64,000 nt of DNA from Ectobacillus sp. JY-23 (lineage in GTDB: Bacteria > Bacillota > Bacilli > Bacillales > Bacillaceae_G), in the NCBI RefSeq assembly GCF_023022965.1, contig NZ_CP095462.1, positions 1,612,001-1,676,000 on the forward strand. Direction: 5' to 3'. Made by a program: the position numbers and the translations under genes. Shown here in pieces: positions 34,019-63,845 of this stretch (position 1 is the stretch's first letter; each line of letters begins with the position of its first letter). A model generated the notes under the pieces. The model was not told the DNA's origin, searched no databases, and worked only from the letters and a program-made list of their open reading frames with translations.

Positions 34019-34771
34019 TTAGCGCGTCATACGATTGTAATCGGAACGTACAGAACGGAACATATCTTCTAAATCTTTGTTCATGTCGTTTGTCATCGTT
34101 CCATCACGCAAATTGGTGTTCATTTTATTTACGCGGTTATACATACTTTCGTTCACCGCAACTTGTAAATTCCTTCCTTTTGTATATGGCATCGCTACTT
34201 GACGGATTTTATCTTTGAGCTTACCTTCACTCATTGTTCCATCAGATTTAACAGCAACTAATACATCATTTCCATATACAACAGTTGAGACACGATCTAC
34301 TTCATTTAATCGTTTGACACGATTGGTAATTTTTTCAGAAGTTGCGCCGTCTCCATTTGTATAGTATCCATTCATAGTAACGTTGCGTGTAGGATAAGAA
34401 TTATCAAGGTGACTGTGGAAATTGCGGTCACCATAGTAATTATATCCCACTTTCTCTTTGTTTTTATGAATGTCTTGGTTAATCTTTGTATACTTTACGT
34501 TGCCGTAATGATCTGTTTTTGGCTCACGATACGCTACACGATTCATATTTAAATCGCTATAACGATCCGTGATACTAGCTGGCCTTGGACCATATCCATA
34601 AGAGTTTGGATAATCACCAAAGCCATAGTAAGACGTACGCTCATATGCAAAATCATCTGCTGTTTGTTCTTTATATCGTTCCATAGCGGTGTCTTTTTTA
34701 TCTGTATTACAAGCTGCCAAGACGCCCACCGCCAACAATGAAGTTGCCACAATCTTAAGTTTCTTGTTCAA
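34019..34771 (-). CDS. YhcN/YlaJ-family sporulation lipoprotein
   Basis: 250 residues with a lipoprotein signal: KKLKIVATSLLAVGVLAAC, lipobox LAAC, cysteine about residue 21. A Tyr/Gly/Asn-rich variable region (about 40-130) comes before a YhcN/YlaJ-type domain: ITNRVKRLNEVDRVSTVVYGN, VLVAVKSDG, LKDKIRQVAMPYTKGRNLQVAVNESMY. Such proteins sit in the inner spore membrane of Bacillus. The start is TTG at 34771 with AGGGGG eight bases upstream. Function beyond localisation is uncertain. Confidence 0.9.
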   Translation of the reverse strand: MNKKLKIVATSLLAVGVLAACNTDKKDTAMERYKEQTADDFAYERTSYYGFGDYPNSYGYGPRPASITDRYSDLNMNRVAYREPKTDHYGNVKYTKINQDIHKNKEKVGYNYYGDRNFHSHLDNSYPTRNVTMNGYYTNGDGATSEKITNRVKRLNEVDRVSTVVYGNDVLVAVKSDGTMSEGKLKDKIRQVAMPYTKGRNLQVAVNESMYNRVNKMNTNLRDGTMTNDMNKDLEDMFRSVRSDYNRMTR

Positions 34772-34795
34772 TACAAAGACCCCCTCTGCAAAATC

Positions 34796-34813
34796 GAGCC
34801 ATGAAAATGGCTC
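34796..34813 (-). terminator. Weak hairpin after the kinase-like gene
   Basis: Stem GAGCCAT/ATGGCTC with a short loop, followed only by GATTTTG on the minus strand, so termination would be partial and the lipoprotein gene may be read from safA transcripts. Confidence 0.4.
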
Positions 34814-34849
34814 TGTATTAGCTTGCGCTTTAGAAGGGGTTTTAAACTG

Positions 34850-35821
34850 TCAGTATTTAACTTGATTTGCACGTTGTAACAACTGTCTTAAACATGATGT
34901 ACGCTTTTCATAATGCTCTATGGTGAATGTAATGATTTTTTCTTCAAATAATGTTTTCGTTTCTTCAGGCAATAATATGAAGTACTGCCACTCTCGTAAC
35001 AGGTCTCCTGGAAATATCAAGCCCAGTAAAAATACTTTTATATTCATAAAAGGATACTCTGTGTATTCTTCACAAATCGCTTCATAATCCCAGCTCAAAT
35101 CAGGCATTATCGCATGAAAATACTTGATATAATCATACATACAGGGGCCATAGCTTACACAATCAAAATCAATTAGGTAAACCTGCTCTGCTTTAATAAA
35201 ATTATGCGCTACTACGTCACCGTGGAGAACGCATGATGGTAAACGACGTATATCTTCCATATATAATGCTCGTAGCGCAGTATATGCCCAACCTAGGATA
35301 TCACTTACAATTTCCGACCCTACATATCGTGAAATTTCATCTCGAGAATGAAAAAACGTTCGCAAACGCTTCTCCCATTTCACAAGCCAATCCAGCTTAG
35401 GTACCATGGAACGTATATGCTGCGGCAACAACTTTGCATATTGATGATATTTCGTTAACACTTGAAGTCCCGCAAACCGATTTTCTTTTTGTGCAAGCGT
35501 AAATAATTCTGTATGACTAATATAATCCATCACTAACCAATATACGTCTGAGAAAGGCATATATAATACATTGGACGCAAAGGGTCGTATGCATGTTGTT
35601 TGAGAAAAGCCAACCTGTTGTAGCTCGCTTAACAACAAGGACTGTTGGTGGACTTTATATATTTCTTTGTACCCCTTTACAATATATATATGTTCCTCTG
35701 TATACACCATATACACAAACGTCTTAAGCTGCACAATACGGTAAACTGGCATATATGTGCGTAAGAACGAAAAAAGGCGCGCGGTAAACGCATCGCCTTT
35801 TCCTTGTTTATTCTGTATCAT
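34850..35821 (-). CDS. CotS/YsxE-like kinase-fold spore protein
   Basis: An aminoglycoside-phosphotransferase-fold protein of about 323 residues. The catalytic-loop equivalent is CVLHGDVVAHNF and the DFG-equivalent VYLIDFDCVSYGPCMYDY, so the Asp residues are kept and catalysis is possible. The frame runs to 36097, but that part is safA shadow. The ATG at 35821 (MIQNKQGKGDAF) overlaps the safA 3' end by 14 bp and has no clear ribosome site, so coupling to safA is likely. Family members in Bacillus are spore coat proteins; the substrate is unknown. Confidence 0.8.
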   Translation of the reverse strand: MIQNKQGKGDAFTARLFSFLRTYMPVYRIVQLKTFVYMVYTEEHIYIVKGYKEIYKVHQQSLLLSELQQVGFSQTTCIRPFASNVLYMPFSDVYWLVMDYISHTELFTLAQKENRFAGLQVLTKYHQYAKLLPQHIRSMVPKLDWLVKWEKRLRTFFHSRDEISRYVGSEIVSDILGWAYTALRALYMEDIRRLPSCVLHGDVVAHNFIKAEQVYLIDFDCVSYGPCMYDYIKYFHAIMPDLSWDYEAICEEYTEYPFMNIKVFLLGLIFPGDLLREWQYFILLPEETKTLFEEKIITFTIEHYEKRTSCLRQLLQRANQVKY

Positions 35822-37445
35822 CGTCCGCACTCGGCACGCCAAACATTGCAGCTTGATCCGGGCGATAATACGGCGCCATCGGTTGCGGTGCGTAAGGTAC
35901 ATATGGCATGGACTGGTAATACGGTGCCTGTTGCGGGTTGAATGGATAATATGGTCCACCTGACATTGGTGGTGGTGCATACGGATAACTCGATTGCTGA
36001 TCGTCGCATCCACAATCTCCTTGTGCCTGTGGTGAATAGTTATCCATTCCTGGTGCCGCATTTGGCATATACAGGGATGATGACTCATAAGGTGCATGAT
36101 GATTTGGTTGCATCAAGGAAGATGACTCCTGCATCATACCTTGCACATATTCCGGATATGGCATCGGATATTGTGGCGCAGGTGGCATGTATGGCATCAT
36201 ACCTTGGGGCGGATACTGCGGCGCGTAAGGCATTGGTGGCATATATGGCATCATCCCCTGTGGTGCATATGGCGGTGGGTACGGTGTAGGCGGCATATAC
36301 GGCATCATACCTTGCGGCGGATATGCCGGTGCATACGGCATTGGCGACATATCATACGGCATTGGGTATGGATTCATATCGTATGGCATCATTGGTGAAC
36401 CGTATTGTGGATAACCTGGGTTCATATACATACTAGGATCAACAGGCGGCATATTATTATAAGCCGGATAAGGTTGTTGCACATCCATTTGCCCCATTAC
36501 AGCCTCTGGAGCCTGCGGTGCTACAGGTTCGTTCATAACTGGCATCGCTTTATCTGTAACGGGCGCAGTAAAGTTTGGCGCATTCATAATTGGCATTGCC
36601 GTATTAGCTGCTGGCGCTGTAAAGCTTGGTGCTTCCATCAGTGGCATTGCTTTATTTGCTGCCGGTGCTGTAAAGCTTGGTGCTTCCATCAGTGGCATTG
36701 CTTTATTTGCTGCCGGTGCTGTATTTTGGTTATCTTTTGCAGCTTGCGCAACATCTTTTTTTGCTTCAAAAGCTGATTCCACAACGTTATCCTTTTGTGC
36801 AGCAGGTGCTATCATATTGTCTTTGTTTGCCGGCTTTGTTGCGATAGGCTCTGTTTTAGTTGTCGGTACTTTAAACTCGTTTGCCATATTAAAAGTCTTA
36901 GATGGCGGCTGCGGTGGCTGCGGTAAAATGTTTACGGAAAACTTCGTTACATCTTTAAGAGGAGCTTCCGGCTTTTGTGCTGGTTTAGCAGCAATCGGTG
37001 CCTCTGGCTTTTGTGCTGGCTTCTCAGCAATCGGCGCTTCCGGTTTTTGTACAGGCGGTGTCACCGGCTTTTCTTTTTGCGGAGCTGTCACCGGCGTTTC
37101 CTTTTGCACTGGCTTTAACTGTGTTTCCTTTTGCTTGCCCATTGGCATTTGCATGGCTGGTTGCTCAGAAGCTGGGCCAGTTTGGGCTTGCTGTTCATCT
37201 TCGTCCAAAATTGTTAAATTTTGTGGCTGAGCTGGTGTTGTCTGTTTCATATACTCTTTTGGAGGTGCTGATCCTCCTCCGGCATATTTGGCACCAGTTG
37301 ATGGCACTTTAATCTTCATGCCAGGCATAATCAAGTCAGGATTACTCAGCTGTGCATTAGCTTGCTTTAACGTTTCTAAGTCTACCCCATATTTTTTCCC
37401 AATCTTCCACAGGGTATCTCCTTTTTGCACGATGTGAATTTTCAC
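35808..37445 (-). CDS. safA: Spore coat assembly protein SafA
   Basis: Coat/cortex-interface morphogenetic protein that binds SpoVID. Residues 1-48 form a LysM domain (IVQKGDTLWKIGKKYGVDLE). Then come a Gln/Pro/Lys region with QKPEAPIAxKPA repeats (about 125-165), 17-residue repeats TAPAANKAMPLMEAPSF (about 240-300), and a long Met/Pro/Tyr-rich part with three GMMPYMPP units and a CGCDD segment near 490. At 545 residues it is much longer than B. subtilis SafA (387). The start is GTG at 37445 with GGAGGGGG. Confidence 0.93.
   Translation of the reverse strand: MKIHIVQKGDTLWKIGKKYGVDLETLKQANAQLSNPDLIMPGMKIKVPSTGAKYAGGGSAPPKEYMKQTTPAQPQNLTILDEDEQQAQTGPASEQPAMQMPMGKQKETQLKPVQKETPVTAPQKEKPVTPPVQKPEAPIAEKPAQKPEAPIAAKPAQKPEAPLKDVTKFSVNILPQPPQPPSKTFNMANEFKVPTTKTEPIATKPANKDNMIAPAAQKDNVVESAFEAKKDVAQAAKDNQNTAPAANKAMPLMEAPSFTAPAANKAMPLMEAPSFTAPAANTAMPIMNAPNFTAPVTDKAMPVMNEPVAPQAPEAVMGQMDVQQPYPAYNNMPPVDPSMYMNPGYPQYGSPMMPYDMNPYPMPYDMSPMPYAPAYPPQGMMPYMPPTPYPPPYAPQGMMPYMPPMPYAPQYPPQGMMPYMPPAPQYPMPYPEYVQGMMQESSSLMQPNHHAPYESSSLYMPNAAPGMDNYSPQAQGDCGCDDQQSSYPYAPPPMSGGPYYPFNPQQAPYYQSMPYVPYAPQPMAPYYRPDQAAMFGVPSADDDTE
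36607..36720 (-). repeat. 51-bp tandem repeat inside safA
   Basis: Two essentially identical 51-bp units (about 36619-36669 and 36670-36720) encode TAPAANKAMPLMEAPSF twice; two further diverged units lie downstream in the protein. The identity at DNA level implies recent duplication, so the number may vary between strains. Confidence 0.8.
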
Positions 37446-37514
37446 GTTTTCCCCCTCCTGTACGACTTCTCTATAATAGAAACGGTATGTTCAGGCAAGT
37501 TGCTACTTCATCAC

Positions 37515-37544
37515 AATGTATGCGCGGAGAAATACATTTATGTA
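37515..37544 (-). promoter_or_regulatory. Candidate sigma-E promoter of safA
   Basis: CATACATT on the minus strand (37515-37522) is a near-consensus sigma-E -10; about 15 bp upstream is GTACATAA, a weaker -35. A sigma-A-like pair (TTGCCT, 17 bp, TATAGA) lies closer to the gene. Which is used cannot be told. The rest of the 270-bp gap shows nothing further. Confidence 0.4.
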
Positions 37545-37678
37545 CATGTGAGATGAGAAAGGACAAAAAACCATAAAAAGTACTATTAGAATGCTACAGA
37601 GATGGAAACAAGTAGATGAAATTCTTGAAAAGAATAAACTTTGCTGCGAGAATCAGCAAATACCTCTAATGAACAAAT

Positions 37679-37709
37679 AAAAAAGGCAGCGAACATTTCG
37701 CTACCTTTA
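37679..37709 (-). terminator. Terminator after nadBCA
   Basis: Stem AAAGGTAGCG/CGCTGCCTTT (one G-T pair) followed by TTTTTATTTG on the minus strand, directly after the nadA stop. Confidence 0.85.
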
Positions 37710-61851: not shown

Positions 61852-62883
61852 TTATTGCTGTGATTGTTGGGCTTGTTGCTCTGCTGCTTGAATTTGTGAG
61901 ACAAAAAATTCAGTATTGTTGATAAGCCAATGCACTTGTTGCAGTTGGGTGACAGATTCACGTTCGTTGCGATCATTTCGACTCGGCTGTGCCGCGTAGG
62001 TAGCTACTTGCTTGGTAAATAAACGAGGATATGCTAAGTAGGCCAACATCAACTTTTTTTCTTCAGGTGTGAAGGGAAAGTTTTTTTGATAGACTTGGAA
62101 CCATTCGTATCTGTCATTACGCGCAATCGGATATGTTTGAAACGAGCGAGAGTAAAATTGGACAAGGTCTTGAACGGGCGTGGAAAATTGAGAGCGTTCT
62201 AAACTAATAAAATACCCGTTTTGTTCATGATCAAATAAAAAATGATTCATTGACAAATTACCGTGAATAAGCGCAATCCGTGTGGTCTCCTGCTCCTTCA
62301 TAGCTTCATGCCATTCCTCAAGCTTTTTGGAGGCAAATTCATGGGCGCGTATTGCCTGATGAAAATACGTGCAGTATTGCAACTCAAACGGAGACATATA
62401 CCATCTGCTTTCACAATTTACTACAAACTCCTCCATGGCATTTCGTTCTCTCTCCCAAATTCCTGATAAAGTATCATAATGATTATTAAGCACGTCCTCC
62501 GTCAGCTTTTCTTCACGCAATGTTTTTTGATGCATACTTGCCAAGGTTTGAAACATTTTATGATACTCGTCGTTTTCTTCACCCTGTGCATGCGCTTCAA
62601 GCCATGGCATCAAATAGTATCGATATTCAGAATCCGATAAAATATACTCGCCAATTCCGTTATGATAAATGGGGGCAAAATTTGTGAAGCCTTTCTCCGC
62701 CAAGAGCTGCAAATGCTGCATAAAATTACTTCGCTCCAGCCTCGAAGGTTCCAGCTTTTTCAAAGCATATGCCCCCTGGTTCGTATGCACCTTAACCACA
62801 CTGCCATACTCTTCTATATGCTCTGCATGCAACCGATAAGATTGCAGCAACGGTTCATACCGTTCTCGTACCGTTCGTTCCAT
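61852..62883 (-). CDS. ysxE: YsxE, CotS-family spore coat kinase-like protein
   Basis: 343 residues with an aminoglycoside-phosphotransferase fold. N-lobe with VVKVHTNQGAYALKKLEPS; catalytic loop IALIHGNLSMNHFLFD, where Asn replaces the usual catalytic Asp in HGD; and the DFD equivalent FISLERSQFSTPVQDL, where Asp is also lost. It is therefore probably a pseudokinase, unlike the protein at 34850. In B. subtilis YsxE is a coat protein dependent on SafA. The ATG at 62883 has AAAGGG. Confidence 0.92.
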   Translation of the reverse strand: MERTVRERYEPLLQSYRLHAEHIEEYGSVVKVHTNQGAYALKKLEPSRLERSNFMQHLQLLAEKGFTNFAPIYHNGIGEYILSDSEYRYYLMPWLEAHAQGEENDEYHKMFQTLASMHQKTLREEKLTEDVLNNHYDTLSGIWERERNAMEEFVVNCESRWYMSPFELQYCTYFHQAIRAHEFASKKLEEWHEAMKEQETTRIALIHGNLSMNHFLFDHEQNGYFISLERSQFSTPVQDLVQFYSRSFQTYPIARNDRYEWFQVYQKNFPFTPEEKKLMLAYLAYPRLFTKQVATYAAQPSRNDRNERESVTQLQQVHWLINNTEFFVSQIQAAEQQAQQSQQ

Positions 62884-62902: not shown

Positions 62903-62942
62903 AAAAATAAAAAGAGGTGAGGAAGAAATTTTCTTCACTCAC
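62903..62942 (-). terminator. Terminator after spoVID
   Basis: Stem GTGAG-T-GAAG/CTTC-CTCAC (about 62917-62942) followed by CTCTTTTTATTTTT on the minus strand. It ends near the ysxE ribosome site, so ysxE expression may depend on readthrough. Confidence 0.65.
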
Positions 62943-62951
62943 ACTGCTCTT

Positions 62952-63845
62952 TTACGACTTCGCTTTTGGCTTGACTATTGGGATATATAAAATCTTTCCT
63001 TCTTGCAAATACCCTTCATCAATTTGATTGACACGTGTTAATTGTTGAGAAGTGATATTATATTTTTCAGCTATGGATTCGGTTGTGTCACCTTGCTGAA
63101 CAAAGTACATCCGCATCTTTGTAAACTCTTCATCACGCTCTTTTGTAAATAATTTTGTTAAATACAGTGCATTTTCATCACGCTGAGAATATTCATATGT
63201 TTCTTCTTCCTCTTCATCCCTGAATTTCTGAAACGAAAAGGCAGGAGGCACTTCTTCAGCTGGAGGTTTTTTTGCTTCTAATTGAAATGGCTCTAATGTT
63301 AGCTCTTCAAAATGAGGTGCCTCATATACTGTGTCTTCCTCACGTGCATCCTCATCATAATAGGAATCCCATTCATTCTCTTGTGATTCCTCATAATGAT
63401 GCACCTCTACCTCATCTCGATTACAAAGACCACCAATTGCAATATCTGCAATAAGCTGTAAACAGCCACGTTCAGGCAACTCATAGTCAAATGATTCAAT
63501 CGTTACGTATAAATCCGCCGCATCTCTTACACGAGCACGAGGAATCGAGACTTCAAGCGGAAAAGCATGCGAAATTTCATTCACACCATCTTCTCTTGTA
63601 AACACTGCATCCACTGTACGAACTGGTGATAAATCTCGTAAAGAAAAGCCTTCTTCTTCCGGTTCGGGTACATATTCACCTGTTAATTGCAGCTCTCCTC
63701 TTACAACTACCTCATAATCCTTTTCCTGCACGGAAATGTCTGGATCTAACGAAATGGAAATTAACTCCGCTACTTCCTGTCCTTTTTTAAACCATATGGA
63801 CTCCTTTAACGAAAAGCGCAATGATGTTTGCTCATCCAACGTCAT
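62952..63845 (-). CDS. spoVID: Stage VI sporulation protein D
   Basis: Coat encasement protein that recruits SafA. 297 residues: N-terminal SPOCS-like domain (about 10-140, LRFSLKESIWFKKGQEVAEL, PLEVSIPRARVRD), a very acidic middle (about 150-235), and a C-terminal LysM (MYFVQQGDTTESIAEKYNIT). Much shorter than B. subtilis SpoVID (575), mainly through a shorter acidic linker. Next to ysxE and hemL, as in B. subtilis. Confidence 0.93.
   Translation of the reverse strand: MTLDEQTSLRFSLKESIWFKKGQEVAELISISLDPDISVQEKDYEVVVRGELQLTGEYVPEPEEEGFSLRDLSPVRTVDAVFTREDGVNEISHAFPLEVSIPRARVRDAADLYVTIESFDYELPERGCLQLIADIAIGGLCNRDEVEVHHYEESQENEWDSYYDEDAREEDTVYEAPHFEELTLEPFQLEAKKPPAEEVPPAFSFQKFRDEEEEETYEYSQRDENALYLTKLFTKERDEEFTKMRMYFVQQGDTTESIAEKYNITSQQLTRVNQIDEGYLQEGKILYIPIVKPKAKS

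Follow-up and report, generated by a model that had tools for sequence, protein, structure and literature searches.

What is the role of a kinase-fold gene placed directly behind safA, and is it a counterpart of the ysxE gene behind spoVID? The question arises from a 64-kb stretch of DNA (hereafter, the window) from an Ectobacillus genome of 3.89 Mb, for which the initial annotation had described both LysM coat morphogen genes as being followed by a gene of the kinase fold. This arrangement was confirmed at both loci. In the first pair, safA (545 aa; 35808..37445, minus strand; TIGR02899 at 90.9 bits against a cut-off of 67.85, and Pfam LysM at 57.5 bits) was followed by a gene of 323 aa (34850..35821, minus strand), delimited as an open reading frame and by homology, which matched Pfam APH (PF01636) at 36 bits, above the gathering cut-off of 23.2; we refer to it as the safA-linked kinase-fold gene, SLK. 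The second pair, spoVID (62952..63845, minus strand; TIGR02907, 297 bits) and ysxE (61852..62883, minus strand; TIGR02904, 389 bits), is located 26 kb away within the window in the same orientation, and the start of ysxE was assigned at the ATG at 62883, after AAAGGG.

The overlap of 14 nt between safA and SLK (35808..35821, minus strand) was also borne out, as the start ATG of SLK occupies 35821-35819 and the TAA of safA occupies 35810-35808; the mechanically predicted reading frame of SLK extends to 36097, and the homology starts near 35821. A possible sigma-E-type promoter of safA (ACATAAA ... CATACATT; 37515..37543, minus strand) was picked out by eye from its likeness to the consensus. 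The sigma-70 promoter scan of the safA-SLK region gave fewer matches than were found in shuffled sequences, and thus no promoter is claimed for SLK; in addition, none of 4227 Rfam models matched at E<=1 within 34700-37700. The safA gene itself contains imperfect repeats (APAANKAMPLMEAPSFT; PYMPPMPYAPQ) at 36300-36750 (minus strand), of a kind that varies in copy number between relatives. Directly 3' of SLK is a YhcN-like lipoprotein gene (34019-34771, minus strand); a frequent gene order in relatives is safA-SLK-nadE-YhcN-like lipoprotein, and nadE is missing from this position in the window.

To describe the distribution of SLK, a profile built from the first six relatives was searched against 397 genomes from 135 genera of the order. 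SLK was detected in 201 genomes and 65 genera, and safA-type LysM matches in 393 genomes (349 over the curated cut-off). About half of the genomes of the order are without SLK, and a coat can therefore be made in its absence. Scanning named genomes revealed 80 SLK loci, including those of Lysinibacillus, Ureibacillus, Psychrobacillus, Viridibacillus, Sutcliffiella and Gottfriedia endophytica; the nearest named relative is E. antri, with 92% identity for the kinase. SafA was directly upstream of SLK in all but one of these 80 loci, the exception being a locus at which the SafA LysM went undetected. Likewise, a long open reading frame ended at the SLK start in 194 of 196 loci, of which 166 had a detectable SafA LysM domain, and in the remainder the DNA or contig ended before the LysM or the LysM was undetected; the pairing of safA with a kinase-fold gene is therefore above chance. 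In two genomes (G024 and G025) SLK was present and neither YsxE nor YutH was detectable. Four loci of a single genus (L296-L299; f21 g24) carried divergent SLK copies behind safA, one of which (L299) has an in-frame TAA, and decay of the kinase is possibly ongoing in them.

Within the 5' codons of SLK we observed a terminator-like hairpin (AAAAGGCG-ATGCGTTTACCGCG-CGCCTTTT; 35771..35802, minus strand; MFE -17.3, z -2.82) with a T tract on its 3' side (TTTTTT; 35770..35775, minus strand), which codes for part of Leu-Phe-Ser and was matched by the terminator scan, although that scan as a whole gave results near shuffle expectation. The initial annotation had overlooked this element of the overlap region. 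The hairpin codes for SLK residues about 7-17 (KGDAFTARLFS), at the start of the N-terminal helix (residues 9-21). The same organization was found at most of the 125 non-Planococcaceae loci (L021-L059 and L210-L299), where the first ~12 codons of SLK comprise the hairpin and a T-rich tail, a few nucleotides past the safA stop.

We compared the stability of the hairpin with that of synonymous recodings of the same peptide. Over the 125 loci the mean z was -2.9, with p<=0.01 in 82, versus a z of -0.36 and 7/125 at p<=0.01 for an internal control segment, and a z of -0.25 and 4/71 at p<=0.01 for Planococcaceae-type loci; the hairpin of the window, which was equalled in stability by 4 of 200 recodings, was among the weaker ones. 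In an alignment of 33 rows, all of one loop length (A6), 97.6% of the cells were paired and changes on both sides were observed in five of the nine pairs, whereas neither the paired fraction nor the covariation score was reached by any of 500 shuffles or by slid versions of the alignment. The third base of the Arg codon tracked its pairing partner in all 33 rows of A6. The conserved Arg of the 3' arm was encoded by CGT or CGC in 110/110 cases (background 30%), the Leu following it by CTC in 73% (background 8%), and in 86/92 the stem kept a fixed phase relative to the reading frame. With a terminator criterion based on thresholds of our own, 96 of the 125 SLK junctions scored as terminators versus 2 of 784 internal windows, about a quarter of the junctions falling below the criterion, and, because the loci are related, neither these nor the preceding counts represent independent events. 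A T-rich tail (at least 6 T in 9) accompanied 98 of 121 stems, and an interrupted T tract (CTCTTCTCTTATTT) was found in one Bacillus-like lineage (L026-L035 and L044-L046). These results indicate that the hairpin is under selection beyond the needs of the protein in the non-Planococcaceae loci. A transcription-factor palindrome was considered and rejected, as the stem changes with compensation and exact genomic copies are few and scattered. Separately, five similar GAGACGAT...ATCGTCTC palindromes were observed within 3.6 kb of one genome (G054:C1:363793-367383), away from the safA locus.

The hairpin appears to be translated. An in-frame start codon was present within 15 codons upstream of the hairpin in 124 of the 125 loci (ATG in 116), and 38 of the 125 had no start codon between the hairpin and beta-1; these two counts led us to reject a start of SLK on the 3' side of the hairpin. 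Moreover, the residues encoded by the stem, loop and T tract (9-21) form a confident helix in the AlphaFold model. Because the hairpin codes for G-D-x-x-x-x-R-L, the RNA element accounts at least in part for the apparent conservation of these N-terminal residues of SLK.

The hairpin and the N-terminal extension were both absent from the Planococcaceae-type SLK (L060-L130). A terminator was found at none of 70 safA-SLK junctions of this type, and one followed the SLK stop in 55 of 71 loci, versus 2 of the 125 others. In many genomes without SLK, safA ends in a terminator at the same place, and a near-identical stem was observed in two such loci (GGAGACGAT-ATCGTCTC in L315 and GGAGACGATTG-TGATCGTC in L319). 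Either the terminator may have been kept after loss of the kinase, or the start of the kinase may have grown over an old terminator.

Taken together, we consider it fairly probable that SLK is controlled by attenuation, with the terminator of safA inside the SLK codons and read-through yielding a scarce, competent kinase at the SafA layer. SLK would be operonic with safA, its start ATG overlapping the safA stop, and in most non-Planococcaceae the terminator ending safA would sit in the first ~12 codons of SLK. Mother-cell RNA polymerase transcribing safA would mostly stop at the hairpin, and a minority of read-through events would give a message that includes SLK, on which a ribosome finishing safA could reinitiate, so that the hairpin would be read as the N-terminal helix of SLK. 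As an outcome, SLK would be substoichiometric to the abundant SafA scaffold and would act at the SafA layer or inner coat on its own substrate, which may be a small molecule or else a protein that SafA recruits. In Escherichia coli, terminators located within the first 100 nt of an ORF have an efficiency near 100% (PMC7858274), and terminators in Bacillus subtilis are located a few nucleotides past stop codons because the polymerase outruns the ribosomes (PMC7858274, PMC13323073). A further step, which we regard as speculative and rather doubtful, is that the amount of SLK made depends on how often polymerase reads through a self-encoded terminator that is also the helix, possibly sensed by the ribosome finishing safA, such that the enzyme would be kept in proportion to scaffold translation.

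The residues expected of a working kinase are present in SLK (K49, H200-G-D202, N207 and D218-F-D220), including the LHGDVVAHNF and LIDFDCVSYG motifs that the initial annotation had pointed out, and the beta-3 Lys, HxD, Asn and DxD were invariant in 197/197 SLK sequences. In the AlphaFold model of SLK (AF2 pLDDT 95.5), the catalytic residues were aligned in the expected strands and loops. Thus, SLK is catalytically competent and apparently active, as far as its residues and predicted fold indicate. In the YsxE of the window, HGN and ISLE replace HGD and IDxD, and three residues (the catalytic Asp D239, N244 and the leading Asp of DxD) were each lost in 28/28 sequences, so that YsxE is a predicted pseudokinase of the bacterial spore kinase (BSK) family (AF2 pLDDT 92.9). 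The proposal of one active and one pseudokinase member therefore stood on the residues of both proteins; its second half, together with the operonic position of ysxE with spoVID, had been published in 2009 (PMC2860764). A ysxE transposon mutant of Bacillus anthracis shows a strong sporulation defect (PMC12700454).

The nearest solved structure to the SLK model was 2q83 (CotI/YtaA; TM 0.70), and other fold neighbours were N-acetylhexosamine kinase, homoserine kinase, choline kinase and APH. At the BSK linker columns F83, Y90, S151 and Y154, the 197 SLK sequences mostly carry K/R, Q/E, S/T and I/L; the basic pocket of CotI (R268, R271 and K272) is also missing, and SLK has a near-invariant motif of its own, FPxDxxREW, in the C-terminal lobe. 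Judging from these features, the substrate of SLK probably differs from that of the active BSKs. Most kinases in this fold group have small-molecule substrates. There is an appreciable possibility that SLK is a small-molecule kinase (for a sugar, amino sugar or amino-alcohol) that feeds coat or cortex chemistry, its link to safA being a matter of timing only. The fold neighbours beyond CotI and the family-specific FPxDxxREW motif are consistent with such an activity, whereas the very tight linkage to safA, which extends over several families, points to a role together with SafA, and no metabolic neighbour gene is constant. This possibility concerns the substrate of SLK and is compatible with attenuation at the safA-SLK junction.

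An effect of the hairpin on translation or mRNA stability, with the whole operon being transcribed and the hairpin either slowing initiation or protecting the safA 3' end, would fit a conserved pairing located 10-30 nt past the SLK start codon and the interruption of the T tract in some lineages. However, the T-rich tail that most stems carry (98 of 121), the same-place terminators of many kinase-less genomes, and the terminator after the kinase in the group without one at the junction all argue for termination, and we thus consider this alternative unlikely and retain attenuation.

The initial annotation had gone further and proposed two parallel LysM/kinase pairs, with an active and a pseudokinase member at the coat that perhaps phosphorylate coat proteins, and had suggested a phylogeny with CotS, CotI and YutH as a check. 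Spelled out, such a model would derive both pairs from one module, its members being in mutual regulation or acting as kinases on SafA and SpoVID. Both pairs exist, with active and inactive residues as it described, and SLK and YsxE are distant homologs by profile-profile comparison (probability 99.1, 13% identity), as are SLK and CotS/CotI (98.8, 17% identity) and YsxE and CotS/CotI (99.2). In addition, a terminator-like hairpin in the spoVID-ysxE gap, outside the ysxE ORF (62909..62952, minus strand; MFE -17.6, z -4.57), means that both LysM/kinase-fold junctions of this genome carry a hairpin; it was strong in only some relatives, and a universal spoVID-ysxE terminator was rejected on finding it in only some genomes. 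However, a BLASTP comparison of SLK with YsxE among the window proteins gave no meaningful alignment, and SLK, YsxE, YutH and CotS/CotI each formed one clade (SH-aLRT 96, 97, 100 and 97) in a quick tree that resolves neither their deep order nor their placement against other APH-fold proteins. The close kinship of the two kinase-fold proteins was thus not upheld. Furthermore, the similarity of SafA and SpoVID was confined to the LysM repeat, and some genomes had SLK and no detectable YsxE, others YsxE and no SLK. Because SLK and YsxE join only at the profile level, the two loci do not represent a duplicated LysM/kinase module, and the two-pair proposal is quite improbable. The description of SLK as CotS-like holds for the fold, given that 2q83 is its top PDB match, and fails for the family, since the match to TIGR02906 reached 32.2 bits against a curated cut-off of 172.7 and the published linker motif is missing; among the proteins of the window's genome, YsxE and YutH were present and no CotS or CotI scored over the cut-off. 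From these comparisons, SLK is a distinct family and a remote relative of CotI, CotS and YsxE among the bacterial spore kinases. Finally, it is hardly credible that the hairpin arises merely from amino acid conservation (GDDxxxxRLL), for although the residues that it encodes are conserved and make up the N-terminal helix, the structure is lost on synonymous recoding and the extreme Arg and Leu codon choice tracks the partner base.

Of the kinase-fold proteins known from the coat, most are inactive or have yet to be assayed, and SLK adds to them a widespread, apparently active family linked to SafA, the scaffold of the inner coat. No paper describing SLK was found in the literature searched, in which coverage of most subscription journals was lacking; two Bacillus cereus papers that came up deal solely with plasmid promoters, and the BSK paper mentions neither safA nor exsA (PMC2860764). 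The BSK family (CotI/YtaA, CotS, YsxE and YutH; PMC2860764) resembles SLK in its kinase-like fold, its distribution in spore formers, its operons with coat genes, its IDxDxVS-type motif and the N-terminal helix before beta-1, with 2q83 (CotI) as the closest PDB fold, whereas SLK is missing three of the four residues of the active-BSK linker motif (F83, Y90 and Y154). YsxE (TIGR02904) is similarly located 3' of a LysM coat morphogen gene and shares the fold at the profile level; in contrast to SLK, it is a predicted pseudokinase (28/28), forms a separate clade and is near-universal, SLK being found in about half of the genomes. Among solved structures, the best sequence-profile match of SLK was 4pdy, an APH-like protein of Alicyclobacillus acidocaldarius (66 bits, E 2.5e-17). 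CotH, a kinase of the spore coat as SLK would be, phosphorylates the coat protein CotB (PMC7821199), and differs in gene context and family. YsxE had been recognized as a pseudokinase previously (PMC2860764), and the new element here is the terminator-like hairpin in the SLK codons. Its conservation as coding sequence across many genera makes it directly testable in laboratory sporulators whether operon stoichiometry is set by in-ORF terminators in bacteria whose transcription is uncoupled. In bacteria with runaway transcription, the terminators that lie just past stop codons likewise consist of a hairpin and a T tract (PMC7858274, PMC12207403); the SLK hairpin differs from them in that it is also the in-frame coding sequence of the next gene, conserved over many genera.
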